The notes: generated from the sequence alone by a model not told the origin. DNA of 64,000 bases from Candidatus Rubrimentiphilum sp. (GCA_035710515.1 DASTDE010000004.1:591434-655433), one strand, 5' to 3'; numbered from the stretch's first letter, positions 27,658 to 35,950 are shown. Made by a program: numbers and translations.

Positions 27658-28484
27658 TGCGTGCGCTCTTAGTGTTGAACGAGCTGGCGCGCTCGGGAAA
27701 GCGTCAAGCCGAACTCGTGCGCCGCACGCTCGCAGAGTGCGAAATCGATTGCGTTGACGATCCTGACGCCGGAAATCTGGACGCGGTTATTGCCGCCGGC
27801 GGCGACGGCACGATCTTGCATGTATTGCCGCTGGCGCTCGAGCGGGCGTTGCCGCTCGGCGTTATTCCGCTCGGCACGTTTAACGACTTGGCGCACACAC
27901 TCGATCTGCCGTTCGACATCCCGCAGGCCTGCGCGGTTATCAAAGCGCTGCATACGCAGACTATCGATGTGGCGCGCGTCAACGGCGTGTACTACCTCAA
28001 CGAAGCCAGCATCGGACTCTCCTCCCGGATCGCGCGGCGGCAGACGCCCGAGGCGAAACAGCGTTTGGGATCGCTCGCCGTACTTTCGGCAACCGTGCGG
28101 AGTCTGCGCGACGCCGTGCAGATGCGCGTCCGGATCGAGTACGACGGTGCGGTGGAGAGGTTCAAGACGCTGCAACTGACGATTGCAAACAGCGGCCATT
28201 TTGGAGGGATCATCCGTTCGGCCAACGCCGCGATCGACGACGGCTGGCTCGACCTCTACAGCGTGGAAGCGCAGAACTTTCTGCAAGCGATTGCGGTTGC
28301 GAAAAAAGTGATCGCGCGAGACCCCGTTTCCGGCGACGGGTTGCGCGTCAGGCGCAGCAAGGCTTTTTCGGTAAATACCGGTCATCGGCACCGCATTGCC
28401 GCCGATGGCGAGCCCGCGGGCACGACGCCCGCGTTATTTGAAGTCGTTCCGGGTGCGCTGAAGGTTTTGGTCCCGCAGCGTTAA
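27657..28484 (+). CDS. Diacylglycerol/lipid kinase family protein
   Basis: The 275-residue protein has the diacylglycerol-kinase catalytic domain: AAGGDGTILHVL (nucleotide-binding GGDGT), PLGTFNDLAHTL (the LGTxND motif), YYLNEASIGLSSRIA and the C-terminal beta domain with LTIANSGHFGGIIRSANAAIDDGWLDLYSVE. Members phosphorylate lipid substrates such as diacylglycerol, and bacterial homologues vary in substrate. The GTG start overlaps the stop of the GNAT gene. Its stop codon overlaps the stop region of a minus-strand micropeptide gene on the opposite strand. Confidence 0.88.
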   Translation: MRALLVLNELARSGKRQAELVRRTLAECEIDCVDDPDAGNLDAVIAAGGDGTILHVLPLALERALPLGVIPLGTFNDLAHTLDLPFDIPQACAVIKALHTQTIDVARVNGVYYLNEASIGLSSRIARRQTPEAKQRLGSLAVLSATVRSLRDAVQMRVRIEYDGAVERFKTLQLTIANSGHFGGIIRSANAAIDDGWLDLYSVEAQNFLQAIAVAKKVIARDPVSGDGLRVRRSKAFSVNTGHRHRIAADGEPAGTTPALFEVVPGALKVLVPQR

Positions 28485-28597
28485 GCGCGCGGACCCCAGC
28501 CTGAGAACGAGTGGCTTTCCGGCGTGCTTGCGATCACCCGGTCGAGCGGGATCGTCGGACGCAATTGCTGCGGCTCTTTGGTAAAGTCTTTTTTCAT
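28481..28597 (-). CDS. 38-residue micropeptide ending in GWGPRA
   Basis: This short frame encodes a 38-residue basic, proline-rich peptide (starting MKKDFTKEPQQLRP) whose last residues are SFSGWGPRA. The same GWGP-plus-basic tail ends a second micropeptide at 32466-32570, GLFLGWGPKL, and both have a TP pair before it. It follows the DUF5916-type gene by 57 bases on the same strand. The ATG at 28597 has GAGAAAG about 9 bases upstream; an in-frame ATG at 28615 would add six residues. It has no signal peptide. Because such short frames arise by chance, the case rests on the shared tail and its position. No function is known to me. Confidence 0.5.
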   Translation of the reverse strand: MKKDFTKEPQQLRPTIPLDRVIASTPESHSFSGWGPRA

Positions 28598-28654
28598 GGC
28601 GTTCTTTCTCGTCATTCCTCTTCGCTTACCGGAACTCGACGCCGTTTGTTTCGT

Positions 28655-30934
28655 TCACGTTCCGGCGCCGCCGCCGAACCGGAAGAGATACTTAATGATG
28701 AACCGGTCGAGCGTGCGCGACGCCGCCGGCGTGCCGAAGTTTAAGAACAGCTCGTCGCCGTTGCGGAAGCGGCGGTGATAGGCAGCCGCAAGATTTGTGC
28801 CGGGCGGCGAGAAACCGCCGCGCCCGTTGACCGAGCGCAGCGAAATCGTCAAGTTCTCGTCGGGGCCGAGTTGCGCGCCGAGCGAGATGCGCCGCAGCCA
28901 TTGCGAATCGAAGGCGCCCGTCGTAATCGCGCGTTCGAAACTTCCGTCGTATTCCAGCCCCAGCGAAAAGACGCCGATCGGCCGCGACGTCGAGATCGAG
29001 TATAAGTGCAGATAGTCGGGACCGTTGTCGTTCTGTCCGACGAAGCCGAAGCCGAACTTTCCGAAGTTGATCGACGCATCCAGCGGTCTGGCGGTGCCGT
29101 CTTTATACCCGAACGCGGCGGTAAACAGGTTGAACGTATCCGTCCGTCCGCAGAAGTAACCCGGGTATCCCGTGAAGTACGACCGCGGAAGATCCGGATC
29201 GTTGCACGTCGTGCCCACGCTCGCGGGGTCGAGCACCGAGTAGCTGCGCAGCTCGCTGATTTGCGGTCCGATGAAGTTCAGCGAGAAGCCGCTCGGAAAT
29301 GCGGCCTGCAGGCCGATGCTGGAGTCCGCCTGATGCACGGCTCCGGAACGATCGAGGAATCGATCGGCGTTCACGAAGACGAGAAAGTTTTTTACGCCGC
29401 GGCTCGAGCCGCCGGCGTCGCCGAAGAAACTGAAGCCGCGGATGTCAGAGTTGGCTGTGATTCCGTCAATAGGATTGTAGTTCGGACTGATGTCGCCGTA
29501 GTCGATGTTCCATTCGTAGTTCGGCTTGTGAACGTCGATGAAGCTGTTGAAGCTGTGGGCGACGCCCTGAGGCACCCACGTTCCGTGTTCGCTGGCGTCG
29601 TCGATTCCGTAGACGAAGCCGTTCTTGAGATTGCGTCCCTTGATGCCGGCTTCGACCGCGGTGTCGCTGCCGAAGATGCTGTGATGCGCGATCACTCCGT
29701 CGGCCCAGTAGAGGAACGTGCGATCTTGCAGGGCGTGCGAGTAGCCGAACGCCGTGTCGTTAAATTCGTTACCGGTAGACTGATCGTAGCCTTTGAAGTT
29801 CAACACGCCGAACGATTGCCGGCCGAACGTTCCCTCAACTTTGGCGCCGCGATCGAACGGGCCGACCGACGGCGAGTAAAAGATCTCGTTGCCGCCGATC
29901 GGCGCCTGGTTCGGATTCAAGAACTGCGCGCCTTGCGCAAAGAACGGCCGGTACTCTCGCAAGAAGCGGCGGAACTCTTGCGGCGCGATCGTCTGCTGAT
30001 CGATCTCGACGTTTGAGAAGTCCGGATTGAGCGTCCCGACGAAATTGATCGTACTGGTCAGCGGATAGGTGACGTCGAGGCCTACCGGGCGCGCGTCTTG
30101 TTTCAGAAACTGGCCGTTGGCCTGCTGGAAGAGTTTGCGGTCTCGCCCAATGCTTTCCAGCGCGAAGATCTCGACGTGCGGTTTCGGCAGCGCGGTCCGC
30201 GCGTTCAATCCGGTAATGCCGGTCCACGACGGCCAAAAGCGCGCTTCGGTGAAGAGCGGCCAGCCGTTGCTGACTTGCACGTCCTGCATCACGCCATCGT
30301 AGGCCCACGTGTAGCGCTCGTTCGGCGCGGCGACGCTGCGAAAGAAATTGATCCGCCAGCTTTGCGGCGAGCCGGCATGGATGCGCATCGCACTCAACGG
30401 GATGACCATGACCGCATTCCACGAGTCGCCTTGGATCGCAGCCGCGGCTTGCCACAGCGGGCGATAGCGCGCGTTTTCGTTGGCTTGCTGGTAGCGTACG
30501 CCGCGCGGCGTCGTCTCGAAAAAGTAGATATTGGTGCCCGCGCCGCTCGTGTCGATTCCCACGCCCACAAAATCGTCGGTGCCGAAGCCGACGTCGTTGG
30601 TGGTCTGCGTGGCGGTGATCGGTGTCCCTTTCTGTTCGGCGTGAAAGGCGACGTAGAGATTGACGGAGTCGTAGAGCATCCACACTTGCGTCGGATGCGG
30701 AGCGATGGTTCGCGTGGTGAGATCCTCGAAGCCGCCGGATTCCGGAATCGCGCCCGGTTGCCAGGCAGACGCCGGAATGGACGGGTCGAGCGGGATCGGC
30801 GCGGCGGCCCGCACGGCCGGAACTTGCACGGTTGCCTGTACCGAGGCGTGCGCCGGCTGCACGCACGCAAATGCGAGCGCGGCAGCCACAAGCACGAAAA
30901 CGGCGCGCGGAGAACTTCTCAAAGGAAACACCAC
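28655..30934 (-). CDS. DUF5916-type outer-membrane protein with CBM9-like N-terminal domain
   Basis: The 759-residue protein has a signal peptide ending VQPAHAS and a carbohydrate-binding family-9-like domain (about residues 50-240: ASAWQPGAIPESGGFEDLT, QVWMLYDSVNLYVAFHAEQ, DDFVGVGIDT, WNAVMVIPLSAM, WRINFFRS). The remainder is a long beta-rich DUF5916 region with barrel-like strands ending in FIIKYLFRFG (DFSNVEIDQQTIAPQEFRRFLREYRPFFAQG is the most conserved block). It probably sits in the outer membrane; binding or transport of a carbohydrate is inference. GTG start. Transcribed divergently from a wHTH-TPR regulator, with about 70 bases between them, and followed by the GWGPRA micropeptide. 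Confidence 0.85.
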   Translation of the reverse strand: MVFPLRSSPRAVFVLVAAALAFACVQPAHASVQATVQVPAVRAAAPIPLDPSIPASAWQPGAIPESGGFEDLTTRTIAPHPTQVWMLYDSVNLYVAFHAEQKGTPITATQTTNDVGFGTDDFVGVGIDTSGAGTNIYFFETTPRGVRYQQANENARYRPLWQAAAAIQGDSWNAVMVIPLSAMRIHAGSPQSWRINFFRSVAAPNERYTWAYDGVMQDVQVSNGWPLFTEARFWPSWTGITGLNARTALPKPHVEIFALESIGRDRKLFQQANGQFLKQDARPVGLDVTYPLTSTINFVGTLNPDFSNVEIDQQTIAPQEFRRFLREYRPFFAQGAQFLNPNQAPIGGNEIFYSPSVGPFDRGAKVEGTFGRQSFGVLNFKGYDQSTGNEFNDTAFGYSHALQDRTFLYWADGVIAHHSIFGSDTAVEAGIKGRNLKNGFVYGIDDASEHGTWVPQGVAHSFNSFIDVHKPNYEWNIDYGDISPNYNPIDGITANSDIRGFSFFGDAGGSSRGVKNFLVFVNADRFLDRSGAVHQADSSIGLQAAFPSGFSLNFIGPQISELRSYSVLDPASVGTTCNDPDLPRSYFTGYPGYFCGRTDTFNLFTAAFGYKDGTARPLDASINFGKFGFGFVGQNDNGPDYLHLYSISTSRPIGVFSLGLEYDGSFERAITTGAFDSQWLRRISLGAQLGPDENLTISLRSVNGRGGFSPPGTNLAAAYHRRFRNGDELFLNFGTPAASRTLDRFIIKYLFRFGGGAGT

Positions 30935-31003
30935 ATTTCAACTACTAAATTAATACTAAACGGTTTCGGCAGTCTTGAAAAAGTTCTCAAAAGGAAGCGC
31001 CGC

Positions 31004-32383
31004 ATGAGCATCTACAGTTTCGGTCCGTTTTGCCTCGACCCCGAACGCCTGCTGCTGACGCTAGCGGGCGAGCCGGTCGCGCTGGGTCCCAAAGTGGTGG
31101 AGACGCTGCTTGCGCTCATCGAGCGTCCGGGCGAAACGCTCACGAAGAACGAGCTGCTCGACCGGATCTGGCCCGAGGGCTTCATTGAAGAGAGCAGTCT
31201 CGCGCAAAACATCTACGTCATTCGTAAAGTCTTGCGCGCCCATTGGACCGACGCCATTCAAACGGTCCCGCGCCGCGGGTACCGCTTCGCGGGTGACGTC
31301 GTACGGAACGCCGTGCCGGCGCAAGCGAAACGGCGGACCATCCCGCGCTTCTTTTATGGAACGGCTGCCGCAGCGCTGGCGCTCGCGTTCAGCCTCGGAT
31401 TGATGCACGAGACCGCCCGCTCGCAAGCGCAGCAGTTCAGTGCGCCCGCCGCGCGGCTCTTCGCCGTCGGCACCTACTATTGGAAGCAGCGCACCGAGAG
31501 CGGCGTGCAAAAGAGCATCCACTATTTTACGGCCGTCATCAAAACGGATCCCAAGAACGCACGCGGATATGCGGCACTGGCGCAGGCCTACGCGATCGCC
31601 GCCGACTACGGCTACGGGTCGCTTAAACCCAAGCAATCCTACGCACGGGCCCGCACGATCGCGCGCCGGGCAGTGGCCATGGATACGAATTTGGCCGAAG
31701 CGCACGCGGCGCTCGGAATTGCCGAGGACGTGGCTGGCTCGCGGACGGCCGCGCGCGAGCAATTCTACAAGGCCGTCCAGCTCGATCCGAACTACGCCAC
31801 GGCCCACCAATGGTACGGATCGGCCTTGCTGGAGCAGGGACGGCCGCGCGAGGCGCTGGCCGAACTGCAAAAAGCCTTACAGCTGGATCCGGTTTCCGTG
31901 GCGACACTGGCCTGGCTCTCCAGCGCCGCCTACCTCTCCCGGGATTATGCTCAAGCGATTGCCTATGCCCGGCAGACGCTGGAATTCGCTCCCCAGCGTC
32001 GCGACGCGTACTTCACCCTGGGTCTAGGATACGAGGCGTTGGGCAACTACCGGGGAGCCGTCGAGGCCTATCGCGGGTATGCTCAGCGGTGCGCCGGGTG
32101 CCGGTTCGAGGCCGCCGCCCTGCTCGCCCACGCCTATGCCCGATGGGGCGATTACCGGAGGGCCCTCCAGCAACTGAGCCTAGCCAGCCACAAACGCGGC
32201 ATGGGAGCGCCGGACCCGGGAGACCTGGCGGTGGCTCTGGTTGCCTTGAACCGCCGGTCCGACGCGCTGGCGGCGCTCAAGGCTGCCACTCGCGGTGAGA
32301 CGGCCACACTCGGGCTCGACCCGCGCCTCGACCCGATCCGCCGGGATCCCGCCTTCAGAAAATATTTTCGCGCCCCGGCCTAA
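31004..32383 (+). CDS. Winged-helix (CadC/OmpR-type) regulator with transmembrane helix and TPR domain
   Basis: The 459-residue protein has an N-terminal OmpR/PhoB-type winged helix (FGPFCLDPERLLLTLAGEPVALGPKVVETLLALIERPGETLTKNELLDRIWPEGFIEESSLAQNIYVIRKVL and VPRRGYRF), one transmembrane helix (FFYGTAAAALALAFSLGLMH, about 113-133) and six or more tetratricopeptide repeats in the exported part. This is the one-component ToxR/CadC-type layout, where a periplasmic sensor controls a cytoplasmic DNA-binding domain. The ATG has AGGAAG six bases upstream. The divergent outer-membrane gene at 28655 is its probable target. The frame continues open far upstream, antisense to that gene, but that is not coding. 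Confidence 0.9.
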   Translation: MSIYSFGPFCLDPERLLLTLAGEPVALGPKVVETLLALIERPGETLTKNELLDRIWPEGFIEESSLAQNIYVIRKVLRAHWTDAIQTVPRRGYRFAGDVVRNAVPAQAKRRTIPRFFYGTAAAALALAFSLGLMHETARSQAQQFSAPAARLFAVGTYYWKQRTESGVQKSIHYFTAVIKTDPKNARGYAALAQAYAIAADYGYGSLKPKQSYARARTIARRAVAMDTNLAEAHAALGIAEDVAGSRTAAREQFYKAVQLDPNYATAHQWYGSALLEQGRPREALAELQKALQLDPVSVATLAWLSSAAYLSRDYAQAIAYARQTLEFAPQRRDAYFTLGLGYEALGNYRGAVEAYRGYAQRCAGCRFEAAALLAHAYARWGDYRRALQQLSLASHKRGMGAPDPGDLAVALVALNRRSDALAALKAATRGETATLGLDPRLDPIRRDPAFRKYFRAPA

Positions 32384-32389
32384 AAGGGG

Positions 32390-32449
32390 TTGACTTCGCT
32401 TCTTCTTGTGCTATTATACTAGCGTACTAGTACAACAGTGTACTAGTAG
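32390..32449 (+). promoter_or_regulatory. Promoter with triple TACTAG operator for the GntR/ABC operon
   Basis: TTGACT (32390-32395) and TATTAT (32412-32417) are spaced 16 bases apart. Three TACTAG cores follow at 32417, 32425 and 32441. The middle one is within the perfect palindrome GTACTAGTAC (32424-32433) and the last within GTACTAGTAG. Spacings of 8 and 16 bases fit binding by the GntR protein encoded in the same operon. Confidence 0.65.
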
Positions 32450-32465
32450 TTAAGGAGAAGAAGAC

Positions 32466-32570
32466 ATGACGTTCCCCATCAATTTCCAAGAGGCGTCCGA
32501 GCGGCGCACCCCCTCGTTCCCGCTCTCGAACCAAAGCGGTCTGTTCCTCGGCTGGGGTCCGAAGCTGTAA
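32466..32570 (+). CDS. 34-residue micropeptide ending in GWGPKL
   Basis: This 34-residue frame follows a strong promoter and operator and has AAGGAG eight bases before the ATG, so it is very likely translated. It encodes a peptide beginning MTFPINFQEA, with a middle rich in serine and proline, and ending GLFLGWGPKL. The end resembles SFSGWGPRA of the micropeptide at 28481-28597. It is the first gene of an operon with a GntR regulator and an ABC exporter, an arrangement often seen for exported or sensed peptides. No modification enzyme or leader-peptidase domain was found nearby. The peptide may be a substrate, a signal or a leader regulating the operon. Confidence 0.65.
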   Translation: MTFPINFQEASERRTPSFPLSNQSGLFLGWGPKL

Positions 32571-32580
32571 AGGCGACCTG

Positions 32581-32976
32581 ATGCCGGCAATTTTCACGGT
32601 AGACCCGCGCAGCGGCGTTCCGATCTACCTGCAACTCATCGAACAAGTCAAGCGCTCAGTCGCCCTCGGCGTGCTGTCTCCAGGGGAGCAGCTCCCGACC
32701 GTCAAGCAACTGGCACTCGACCTGACCATCAACGCGAACACCGTGGCGCGGGCGTACCGCGACCTCGAGCGCGATGAGGTCATCGAAACCGCCCCCGGCC
32801 GCGGATCGTTTGTCCGCGCCGACGGCGTAGCTCACCAGGTAGGCGCGGCGGGAGACGTGGTCGCTGAAGCAGTCACGCAGGCCGTTCGTGAAGCCAAGTC
32901 CTTAGGATTGCCCGCCGGCAAAGTACGCCAACTTTTTGAAGCCGCCGTCGCGCGGTGGTTTCCGGAGGAAAAATGA
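32581..32976 (+). CDS. GntR-family (YtrA-type) transcriptional regulator
   Basis: The 131-residue regulator has the GntR winged helix (GVPIYLQLIEQVKRSVALGVLSPGEQLPTVKQLALDLTINANTVARAYRDLERDEVIETAPGRGSFV) and only a short helical tail, as in YtrA-type members, which typically repress an adjacent ABC transporter operon. The tail (AVTQAVREAKSLGLPAGKVRQLFEAAVARWFPEE) is short for ligand binding. It starts 11 bases after the micropeptide stop and its stop overlaps the ATPase start (ATGA). The TACTAG cluster upstream is its probable operator. Confidence 0.9.
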   Translation: MPAIFTVDPRSGVPIYLQLIEQVKRSVALGVLSPGEQLPTVKQLALDLTINANTVARAYRDLERDEVIETAPGRGSFVRADGVAHQVGAAGDVVAEAVTQAVREAKSLGLPAGKVRQLFEAAVARWFPEEK

Positions 32977-33878
32977 GCACCATCTCCATCCAGCGCTTGA
33001 GCAAGTCGTACGGAAATTTTATGGCCGTAGACGACGTGACCATCGACATCCCGAGCGGTTCCGTCTTCGGTTTGCTCGGCCCCAACGGGGCCGGCAAGAC
33101 GACAACGTTCAAATGTTTGCTCGGACTGGCGCGCCCGACTCTCGGCACCATCCGTTTCGACGGGCAGCCGCTGACGCCGCCGCTCTTCGAAAGTATCGCC
33201 TACATTCCGGAGCGCAGCGTTCTCTATGACTGGATGAGCGCGGCCGAACATCTGGAGATGCAGCGCCGCACCTTCGCGCGCTATGACGCAGCGCGAGCCA
33301 AAGATTTGATGGCGCTTTTCAGCCTGGATCCCCGCAAACGCGTACGGGCGATGTCCAAGGGCATGCGCAGCGCGCTCGCGATCGTGATGGCGTTCGCCAC
33401 TCATCCCGAGACGCTTATCCTGGACGAGCCGACCAGCGGACTCGATCCGGTGAATCAGCGCGCGGTCCTCAACCTTATTATCGAAGCGGCGGCGCAGGGC
33501 GCGACCGTGGTTCTTTCTTCGCATCAGATCGGACAAGTGGAGCGCGCCGCCGATCACATCGCGGTGCTTCAGCGCGGCAAAGTCGTCTTGGGCGGCGCGG
33601 TTGACGATCTGAAGTCCGACCGCAAGATCGTCGAAGGCGTGTTCGTCTCCGAAACGATCGCCCTCGACGGATTGCGCCGCGACTCGCGGATCGAGCGGCT
33701 CGACCAATCCGGCCGCATTCTGCGGCTCACGGTCACCGCCGATGGCGCGGGGCTGGCCGAGACACTGTCGCAGATGGGTGCGCAGAGCGTGCGCATCGTG
33801 GACCTGAACTTGGAGGATATCTTCCTGAACGCCGTCTCGCCTGGTACGGCGACCGCCGACGTGGTGGAAGCCCGCTAA
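32973..33878 (+). CDS. ABC transporter ATP-binding protein
   Basis: The 301-residue ATPase has all motifs: Walker A GPNGAGKTTT, Q-loop in YIPERSVL, signature MSKGMRSALAI, Walker B LILDEPTSGLDP and the H-loop SSHQIGQVE. The C-terminal 80 residues after the nucleotide domain are typical of drug/peptide exporters of the BcrA/YtrB group. It begins with ATG overlapping the GntR stop and is preceded by GGAGG inside that gene, so translation is coupled. It should energise the two permeases encoded next. Confidence 0.92.
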   Translation: MSTISIQRLSKSYGNFMAVDDVTIDIPSGSVFGLLGPNGAGKTTTFKCLLGLARPTLGTIRFDGQPLTPPLFESIAYIPERSVLYDWMSAAEHLEMQRRTFARYDAARAKDLMALFSLDPRKRVRAMSKGMRSALAIVMAFATHPETLILDEPTSGLDPVNQRAVLNLIIEAAAQGATVVLSSHQIGQVERAADHIAVLQRGKVVLGGAVDDLKSDRKIVEGVFVSETIALDGLRRDSRIERLDQSGRILRLTVTADGAGLAETLSQMGAQSVRIVDLNLEDIFLNAVSPGTATADVVEAR

Positions 33879-34915
33879 TGTTTTACTACGCTGAATATTT
33901 GCGCGGCATGCGCGCGCTGCGCGTCATGGCGATCATCTTGGGCGTCTTTGTCGCGATCGCGATCCTCATTCGTCTGTGGGCGTTCAGCGAGCACAGCCCC
34001 GAGTCGGTGGCGACCGCGTTGCAATCTTCACCAACGGCCCACGTTACGACCAAAACGCTGGCGGACGGCACGGTCGAAACGATTGTCGACGATCCCGCGG
34101 CTCATGTGCATGCGGTCATCGACCGGCACGGACGCGGCTTTCGCATGGACGCCACCATGCCGAGCTCCATGGCGCCCACCCAGCACGTCCATATCTCGAT
34201 GGGCAGCAGCGACGTCATCCGGAACCACAAGACCGGCATGACGCATCTCGTCATCCGGAACGACCTGGACGCCAACATTCCCGTCAGCATCCTGTTTGCA
34301 ATCGCCGAAGGGTTCGCTTTGATCACGGCGACGATGCTCGGCGGAGCATTGGCCAAGGAAAACGACGGACATCTTGAGATCGCGTGGACCAAACCGGTTG
34401 CGCGTGAAAAGTTGGCGCTGGCATCCATCGGCGTCGACATGGCCACGATTCTCGTCTCGCAGCTCGCAACAGTGCTGCTGATCGTCCTGGTCTGCGCGAT
34501 GTTTATCATGCCCACGTTCTCCACCGACGCGCTGACGCTGCCGGCTGTCTTGCTGACGCTGCTCGGACCCTTGGCGTGGTATGCCTGCCTGACGGCCTTT
34601 AGCGCCTCGCTAAAACGCGGACTTGGCATGGTGGTCGGTTTGGGCTGGCTCGCGGCGATCGCAATTCCGGGTATCGAGCAAGCCACCGCGTTTTCGACCA
34701 ACGACGTAGGCCTGGCTATTCACGGTGTGTTCAAGGCCCTGACGTACATCGATCCGATCCAATACGTTCACATCTCGTTCCACGCGTCGGCCGGCGGCCC
34801 GGGTATGCGATCGATGCCGGCCGACCCGCTCGGCATGTCCGTTGTGCTGCTGCTCGTGCTGACCGCCGCCTATGTTGCGGCAGCGGTGCTGCAGTGGCGG
34901 CGGGTGGAGGCGTAA
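33878..34915 (+). CDS. ABC transporter permease, first of a duplicated pair
   Basis: The 345-residue membrane protein has a first helix (RVMAIILGVFVAIAILIRLWAF), an extracytoplasmic insert of about 150 residues with histidine-rich stretches (VHAVIDRHGRG, QHVHISMG), and five further helices (FAIAEGFALITATMLGGALA, MATILVSQLATVLLIVLVCAMFI, LPAVLLTLLGPLAWYACLTAF and others), like the ABC-2 permease type. Its ATG overlaps the last base of the ATPase stop codon (TAATG). It closely resembles the following permease, including QSSPTAHVTT and the GPLAWYACLTAFSASLKRGLG block, so the pair arose by tandem duplication and probably works as a heterodimer. Confidence 0.85.
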   Translation: MFYYAEYLRGMRALRVMAIILGVFVAIAILIRLWAFSEHSPESVATALQSSPTAHVTTKTLADGTVETIVDDPAAHVHAVIDRHGRGFRMDATMPSSMAPTQHVHISMGSSDVIRNHKTGMTHLVIRNDLDANIPVSILFAIAEGFALITATMLGGALAKENDGHLEIAWTKPVAREKLALASIGVDMATILVSQLATVLLIVLVCAMFIMPTFSTDALTLPAVLLTLLGPLAWYACLTAFSASLKRGLGMVVGLGWLAAIAIPGIEQATAFSTNDVGLAIHGVFKALTYIDPIQYVHISFHASAGGPGMRSMPADPLGMSVVLLLVLTAAYVAAAVLQWRRVEA

Positions 34916-34918
34916 GAC

Positions 34919-35950
34919 ATGTATTATTACGTTGAATATCTGCGAGCGTACCGCGCGCTGCGCGTCATCGCGATCATCTTGGCGGTTTCCCTCGCGCTAA
35001 CGGTGCTCTTCCGCCTTTGGGCGTTCAGCGCCAGCACGCCGGAGAAGCTGGCCCAATCGCTGCAGTCGTCACCGACCGCGCACGTGACTACGAGCCGGCT
35101 GGCCGACGGCACGTTGCGCACGGTTGTCGACGATCCGGTCAAGGACACTCACGCAGTCATCGAGCGGCGCGGCCAAACGTTCCGTATGGACGCAACTGTG
35201 CCGAGCGCGGATGCTCCGCGCCACAATCACTTTTCGGTCGGCACGTTCGTGATCGACAAAAAGCAAAACGGCGGCACGGCGCACGTGATCGCGAACTACG
35301 ACATGGACGTGCAAATCGGGCTGGGAGAATTCTTCGCCGTCTCGTCCATTATCGGCCTTATCACCGCGACGATGCTCGGCGGTGCGCTTGCCAAGGAAAA
35401 CGAATCGCATCTGGAGCTGGCCTGGAGCAAGCCCGTCTCACGCGACCGGCTGGCGCTGGCGTCGATCGCCGTCGACATGGCGGCAATCGTCATCTCGCAG
35501 CTCGTGACCGTTGTGCTCGCCCTGCTCCTCATGCTGATGTTCGTCACGCCGCACGTGTTCGTGAATGCGCTGACGCCCAGTGCTATCGCGCTGTCGCTGC
35601 TGGGTCCACTCGCGTGGTATGCCTGTCTGACGGCGTTCAGCGCTTCGCTCAAACGGGGTCTTGGACTGGTGGTCGGCCTGGGCTGGCTGGCCGCGATCGT
35701 CGTGCCCGCCGTTGCAACCGGAACGTCGCTCAGCTCGGTGACCGCGATTCAGGCCATACATGCCGTTTTCCAGGCGGCTTCCTACATCGACCCTATCTCG
35801 TATCTTTCGTTTCACGGATCGGTTTCGGGCAGCGGTCTGACGCTCCGTACTTCAATTGGTACCCTCGGAATATCCGCTCTCGCACTTTTCTTTCTGACCA
35901 TCGCGTACGTTGCGGCCGCAGTACTGCAGTGGCGCCGCGTGGAGGCTTAA
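34919..35950 (+). CDS. ABC transporter permease, second of a duplicated pair
   Basis: The 343-residue permease repeats the layout of its neighbour: first helix RVIAIILAVSLALTVLFRLWAF, an external insert beginning SSPTAHVTTSRLADGTLRTVVDD, and five C-terminal helices with GPLAWYACLTAFSASLKRGLGLVVG. It starts three bases after the upstream permease. Divergence is greatest in the external insert, so the two could contact a substrate asymmetrically. It is followed by a 49-residue gene. Confidence 0.85.
   Translation: MYYYVEYLRAYRALRVIAIILAVSLALTVLFRLWAFSASTPEKLAQSLQSSPTAHVTTSRLADGTLRTVVDDPVKDTHAVIERRGQTFRMDATVPSADAPRHNHFSVGTFVIDKKQNGGTAHVIANYDMDVQIGLGEFFAVSSIIGLITATMLGGALAKENESHLELAWSKPVSRDRLALASIAVDMAAIVISQLVTVVLALLLMLMFVTPHVFVNALTPSAIALSLLGPLAWYACLTAFSASLKRGLGLVVGLGWLAAIVVPAVATGTSLSSVTAIQAIHAVFQAASYIDPISYLSFHGSVSGSGLTLRTSIGTLGISALALFFLTIAYVAAAVLQWRRVEA

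Follow-up and report, generated by a model that had tools for sequence, protein, structure and literature searches.

We analyzed a 64,000-nucleotide stretch of the Candidatus Rubrimentiphilum sp. genome (the window), in which two short genes on opposite strands encode peptides that share a C-terminal tail. The plus-strand gene (32466 to 32570) encodes a 34-residue micropeptide, MTFPINFQEASERRTPSFPLSNQSGLFLGWGPKL, whose tail, FLGWGPKL, occupies 32544 to 32570 together with the stop codon and was identified from the sequence and from the tail statistics given below. It is the opening gene of an operon that continues with a YtrA/PmtR-like GntR repressor (32581 to 32976; Pfam GntR, 4e-14; NCBIfam PmtR, 1e-17, which is below the cutoff), an ABC transporter ATPase (32973 to 33878; profile match), and two permeases on the same strand. 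Permease copy 1 (33878 to 34915) has no Pfam match of its own and clusters with copy 2, an ABC-2 type permease (34919 to 35950). Upstream of the peptide gene lie a sigma-70-like promoter (TTGACT-16 bp-TATTAT, with TG preceding the second hexamer; 32390 to 32417), ACTAGT-type repeats that are likely the operator bound by the adjacent GntR repressor (32417 to 32449), and a ribosome-binding site, AAGGAG, 8 bp 5' of the ATG (32452 to 32457). Orthologs of this peptide, here called group A, open the same operon throughout the class, with the same promoter layout and similar ACTAGT-type sites.

The minus-strand gene (28481 to 28597) encodes a 38-residue micropeptide, MKKDFTKEPQQLRPTIPLDRVIASTPESHSFSGWGPRA, or one of 44 residues if the alternative ATG at 28615 is used, and its tail, FSGWGPRA, plus the stop codon spans 28481 to 28507. 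It lies 58 bp past the gene for a DUF5916 outer-membrane beta-barrel-like protein (28655 to 30934, minus strand; profile match) and closes the transcript of that gene. Its orthologs (group B) are found 3' of a DUF5916 gene in the host genus and three other genera. Between the two peptide loci is a gene for an OmpR-type winged-helix and TPR regulator (31004 to 32383, plus strand). Groups A and B are syntenic, 3 to 10 kb apart, in the host genus and two other genera (the window at 28481 to 32570, L042, L046, L048 to L051, and L057), and the synteny also includes the DUF5916 gene or the winged-helix/TPR regulator. An earlier, sequence-only reading of this DNA had proposed both frames with their tails, an operon-like context for each, and a promoter, operator, and good ribosome-binding site for the plus-strand gene, and all of these were confirmed.

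The same reading had considered the tail to be rare by chance, and pattern scans bear this out. In the 2.54-Mb host genome, the Gly-Trp-Gly-Pro pattern occurs at eight places, four of which are the ends of short frames with FxGWGP[KR]; a reversed-pattern control in this genome gave no match, and a wider FxGWG scan of it gave no additional member. When the host and 60 relatives were scanned for the DNA pattern F-x-G-W-G-P-[K/R-like], without requiring a stop codon, 93 places matched, compared to 4 for the reversed pattern. The relatives account for 89 of these places, and 52 of the 60 contain the pattern. An in-frame stop lies no more than 20 codons away in 86 of the 87 matches that were read in context. 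In three genus-level ortholog sets, dN/dS was 0.19 to 0.27, and it was 0.22 to 0.30 with the tail codons left out; by this sequence measure, the three sets evolve under purifying selection, also outside the tail. Within the tail, the third base of the Gly and Pro codons varies freely across 111 distinct peptides, which argues for selection at the level of the peptide. The reversed-pattern controls and dN/dS rule out a chance origin of the shared tail. The sequence-only reading had named lack of conservation or of a synonymous-substitution signature in relatives as grounds for giving up the idea; the tail is conserved class-wide, and the dN/dS signature is present.

Across the 111 distinct peptides, the tail consensus is [LIVT]-F-x-G-W-G-[PVI]-[KR]-[LIVFA], followed by the stop codon or a few residues. 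The motif exceeds GWGP, in that a Phe stands two residues before GWG and a basic and then a hydrophobic residue stand after it, the latter in all 111 peptides. The position after GWG is almost always P or V, as seen in a stop-anchored scan in which this fourth residue was left free and a stop was required. The stop codon directly follows the hydrophobic residue in 79 peptides, and the rest add 1 to 4, rarely 10 to 12, residues. Because 1 to 12 residues can trail the tail, recognition of a free carboxyl end is not universal. The peptides are 28 to 56 residues long as called (median, 40), with a constant C-terminal and a variable N-terminal part, the latter proline rich and probably disordered. 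The TP pair that had been noticed before both tails in the window proved to be a loose form of an upstream segment, [RHTQN][PTS][TSPF][IVLFM], which is present in 47 of the 111. No signal peptide, transmembrane segment, or hydrophobic segment was found (across the 111, the best 15-residue Kyte-Doolittle window has a median of 0.31 and exceeds 1.6 in a single peptide), and AlphaFold2 modeled the isolated peptide without regular structure.

The stop-anchored scan found the tail at 104 places in 117 genomes of the class, compared to 1 in 32 genomes from other classes of the phylum. An exact search for FxGWGPK[LIM] followed by a stop gave 20 matches in 85,000 species, 18 of which belong to Eremiobacteria/Vulcanimicrobiia, the second being the current NCBI name of the class; these 18 are records named Eremiobacterota or Eremiobacteria, except for L132, which carries just the label "bacterium" and coincides with a class genome (G114). 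The two matches outside the class (L126 and L129) were rejected as relatives in other phyla and counted as chance because they have no credible start codon. A phage origin was rejected, the exact pattern having no match in 2.9 million viral contigs. The peptide family is restricted to Eremiobacteria/Vulcanimicrobiia, which are soil bacteria. A few lineages, the genera g21 and g23, have lost most or all copies, so the peptides are not essential. In one genome (G030), the group A copy is missing despite the presence of the GntR ortholog.

The genomic contexts of the peptides fall into five groups. In group A, the peptide gene comes first, followed by the YtrA-type GntR repressor, the ABC ATPase, and the permease; the distance from the peptide frame to gntR is not conserved, ranging from an 18-bp overlap to a gap of ~48 bp. 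ACTAGT-type operator sites are present in the 120 bp upstream of all 37 group A peptides, and in 5 of 6 inspected GntR-ortholog loci that lack the strict motif, GWGV stands in place of GWGP. Group B peptide genes lie 45 to 170 bp after the DUF5916 barrel gene, with a convergent gene next. Those of group C are divergent from an ECF sigma factor gene, with DUF4097 and DUF6249 genes coming after, and those of group D follow BlaR1-type M56 and/or DUF4097 genes and are convergent with an SNF2 helicase gene. Group E, from family f3, is divergent from ABATE/CGNR stress regulators and mostly stand-alone. The regulator types adjoining the peptides comprise YtrA-type GntR/ABC, ECF sigma, ABATE/CGNR, BlaR1-type, and MalT/LuxR; a few copies next to metabolic genes (L039, L093, and L102) have no visible regulator beside them. 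Among the immediate neighbors of non-A peptides (n = 99) there are 10 ECF sigma, 7 ABATE/CGNR, and 7 DUF4097 genes, compared to 3 DUF4097 genes and at most 2 each of the other two, neither of which ranked within the 25 commonest families, among distant genes of the same loci (n = 98), although these neighbor counts are inflated by orthology, many of the loci being orthologous rather than independent. DUF4097 "toastrack" proteins are discussed alongside envelope stress systems in one paper (PMC11237479). The sequence-only reading had proposed testing whether such frames in relatives lie beside ABC or outer-membrane genes; this holds for both orthologous groups in the window, but what the family as a whole has in common is a neighboring stress or envelope regulator, not a transporter. 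For 41 of the 111 peptides a convergent gene lies directly downstream, making the peptide gene the last or only gene of its unit. Seventeen of them, with a divergent gene on the upstream side as well, look like stand-alone genes.

Several further features of these loci were observed. The ACTAGT operator is confined to group A, and sharing of an operator across groups was rejected on this ground; an ABATE-linked pair (L179 and L180) has a different ACTAGT-containing repeat. The sequence GGGACA occurs ~94 to 107 bp before the peptide start in 8 of 12 family f3 group A promoters (L060, L063, L065 to L067, L070, L073, and L076), where the background is ~1.4% per 200 bp, and the two ABATE-linked peptides L179 and L180 carry it too; it is possibly a shared activator site. 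ABATE/CGNR-linked promoters (L169, L170, L172, L173, L179, and L180) share a TTGACAGGTTA-like sequence and, farther along, another AGGTTAC; this is a candidate operator for the ABATE regulators. A gene belonging to a single sequence cluster is found upstream of some group A peptides (L054, L103, L135, and L186), and the two full-length members of that cluster tested (L103 and L186) gave a weak PDZ_6 match. At L068 and L069, GWGV and GWGP subtypes lie ~1.3 kb apart with a metallophosphoesterase-like gene between them.

The tail is not limited to micropeptides. In three of four family f2 genomes, a conserved protein of ~223 residues ends with the same C-terminal module (L077:5419-6090, L190:463-1128, and L191:1501-2166), and its pre-tail segment, TLSLSRT.., resembles the PTIPLDRV and PTISMTRV of group B. 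This protein had no sequence match in databases, and a fold search of the PDB gave no usable match for its low-confidence model (pLDDT, 50); the order of helices and strands in that model vaguely recalls a degenerate PD-(D/E)XK nuclease fold, a guess of low confidence. Because the tail also ends this larger protein, we regard it as a portable C-terminal module, and the finding favors docking or tagging as its role and argues against its being part of a leader.

Searches of the peptides against Pfam, NCBIfam, PHROGs, PADLOC, and PDB found no significant relative, and no bacterial GWGP peptide was found in the literature, in agreement with the earlier statement that no family with this tail was known. 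The peptides are a real, class-wide, and previously undescribed micropeptide family. Its newness lies in the family and in its architecture, with one tail beside many unlinked regulators; how the peptides work may still turn out to be a variation on a known mechanism. Animal GnRH, corazonin, and AKH neuropeptides have short GWGP-like ends (PMC4923880, PMC5626854), but these are secreted hormones, and kinship was rejected in favor of a chance four-residue resemblance. By position, the nearest known protein is YtrG of the Bacillus subtilis ytrGABCDEF operon, a small transmembrane protein with no assigned function (PMC12772383), which, like group A alone among the peptides, is encoded in a YtrA-type GntR/ABC operon (cotranscription of group A with the GntR/ABC genes being judged from spacing and the promoter). 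Unlike YtrG, the peptides are hydrophilic, have no transmembrane segment or database relationship to it, and share their tail with peptides in unrelated loci. By proposed logic, the nearest are the RssB anti-adaptors IraD, IraP, and IraM of Escherichia coli, small stress-specific proteins that converge on one target (PMC4428439). The likeness would consist in several stress-specific small proteins acting on one target, but the Ira proteins bind RssB in differing ways, and no common tail is known for them. The placement of the peptide genes and their operators suggest induction by distinct stress regulators, as for connector or anti-adaptor peptides.

We tentatively favor, at somewhat less than even confidence, the explanation that these micropeptides are intracellular, are induced by stress, and dock through their common tail on a single putative, class-specific partner. 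Each copy would be switched on by its neighboring regulator under a different envelope stress, and the peptide would then work in trans inside the cell, its tail docking onto a single shared partner such as a protease adaptor, a sigma or anti-sigma factor, RNA polymerase, or an envelope-control hub. A number of independent stress circuits would in this way converge on one target. Of the two copies in the window, the first would be induced together with a YtrA-like ABC exporter, the second together with the DUF5916 barrel.

The sequence-only reading had offered exported or signaling peptides and regulatory leader peptides, and the former we retain as an unlikely rival. The peptides would then be exported, modified precursors, RiPP- or pheromone-like, with FxGWG[PV][KR] and the final hydrophobic residue as the core. 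Maturation would fall to an unlinked enzyme, and export, in group A, perhaps to the adjacent ABC exporter. Short length, a conserved C-terminal core, that exporter, and the class restriction are in keeping with this idea, but the N-terminal signal or hydrophobic export segment of Phr-, PapR-, and SHP-type pheromones is absent, the variable leader and constant core are the opposite of the conserved leader and variable core of usual RiPPs, no maturation enzyme was recognized among the 25 commonest neighbor families, groups B to E have no exporter, and the tail also terminates the ~223-residue protein. Control of the downstream gene in cis, by a leader or nascent-chain arrest peptide during its own translation, is improbable. 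The group A frames closely precede or overlap gntR, and the presence of Pro in the C-terminal motif is reminiscent of arrest peptides; however, a gene that could be controlled follows directly on the same transcript only in group A and part of the other groups, and the 41 peptides followed by a convergent gene have nothing to control, so that a leader cannot be the general explanation. Moreover, the gntR spacing is not conserved, the Pro is often Val, the residues after the motif vary from 2 to 14, and no Rfam leader was found.

In Staphylococcus aureus, the GntR repressor PmtR is inactivated when PSM peptides bind to it (PMC5080381), and PSMs resemble group A in being short peptides with links to both a GntR repressor and an ABC exporter. 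That each peptide is likewise the ligand of its neighboring regulator agrees with the PmtR/YtrA-like adjacent GntR and with peptide and repressor probably sharing one transcript, but PSMs are secreted toxins, whereas the peptides here also adjoin unrelated regulators without an exporter. Because the same tail adjoins at least five unrelated regulator types, it is ill suited to regulator-specific binding, and we consider this reading very unlikely. Slighter still is the likelihood that the tail is a C-degron, with the peptides either rapidly destroyed or saturating a tail-specific protease. The C-terminal position, the hydrophobic end, and a gene for a PDZ-domain protein upstream of some group A copies would fit, but the PDZ gene is present at only ~4 loci, the residues after the tail vary, and a degron would not need such constancy of Trp-Gly-Pro.

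Docking on a shared partner could be put more broadly as a private intracellular peptide code, in which one hub reads the tail of many stress-specific micropeptides; this is possible, though we hold it with still more reserve. Unrelated envelope regulators would then reach the same target via interchangeable 40-residue messengers. Short genes usually escape annotation, and the phylum concerned has been the subject of few experimental studies. That a tail of ~8 residues is kept class-wide over unrelated regulatory loci makes a strong comparative case for a layer of stress control based on peptides, of which no counterpart has been described. The tail could serve in searches for related small genes and in linking the GntR/ABC, ECF, ABATE, and BlaR1 circuits.
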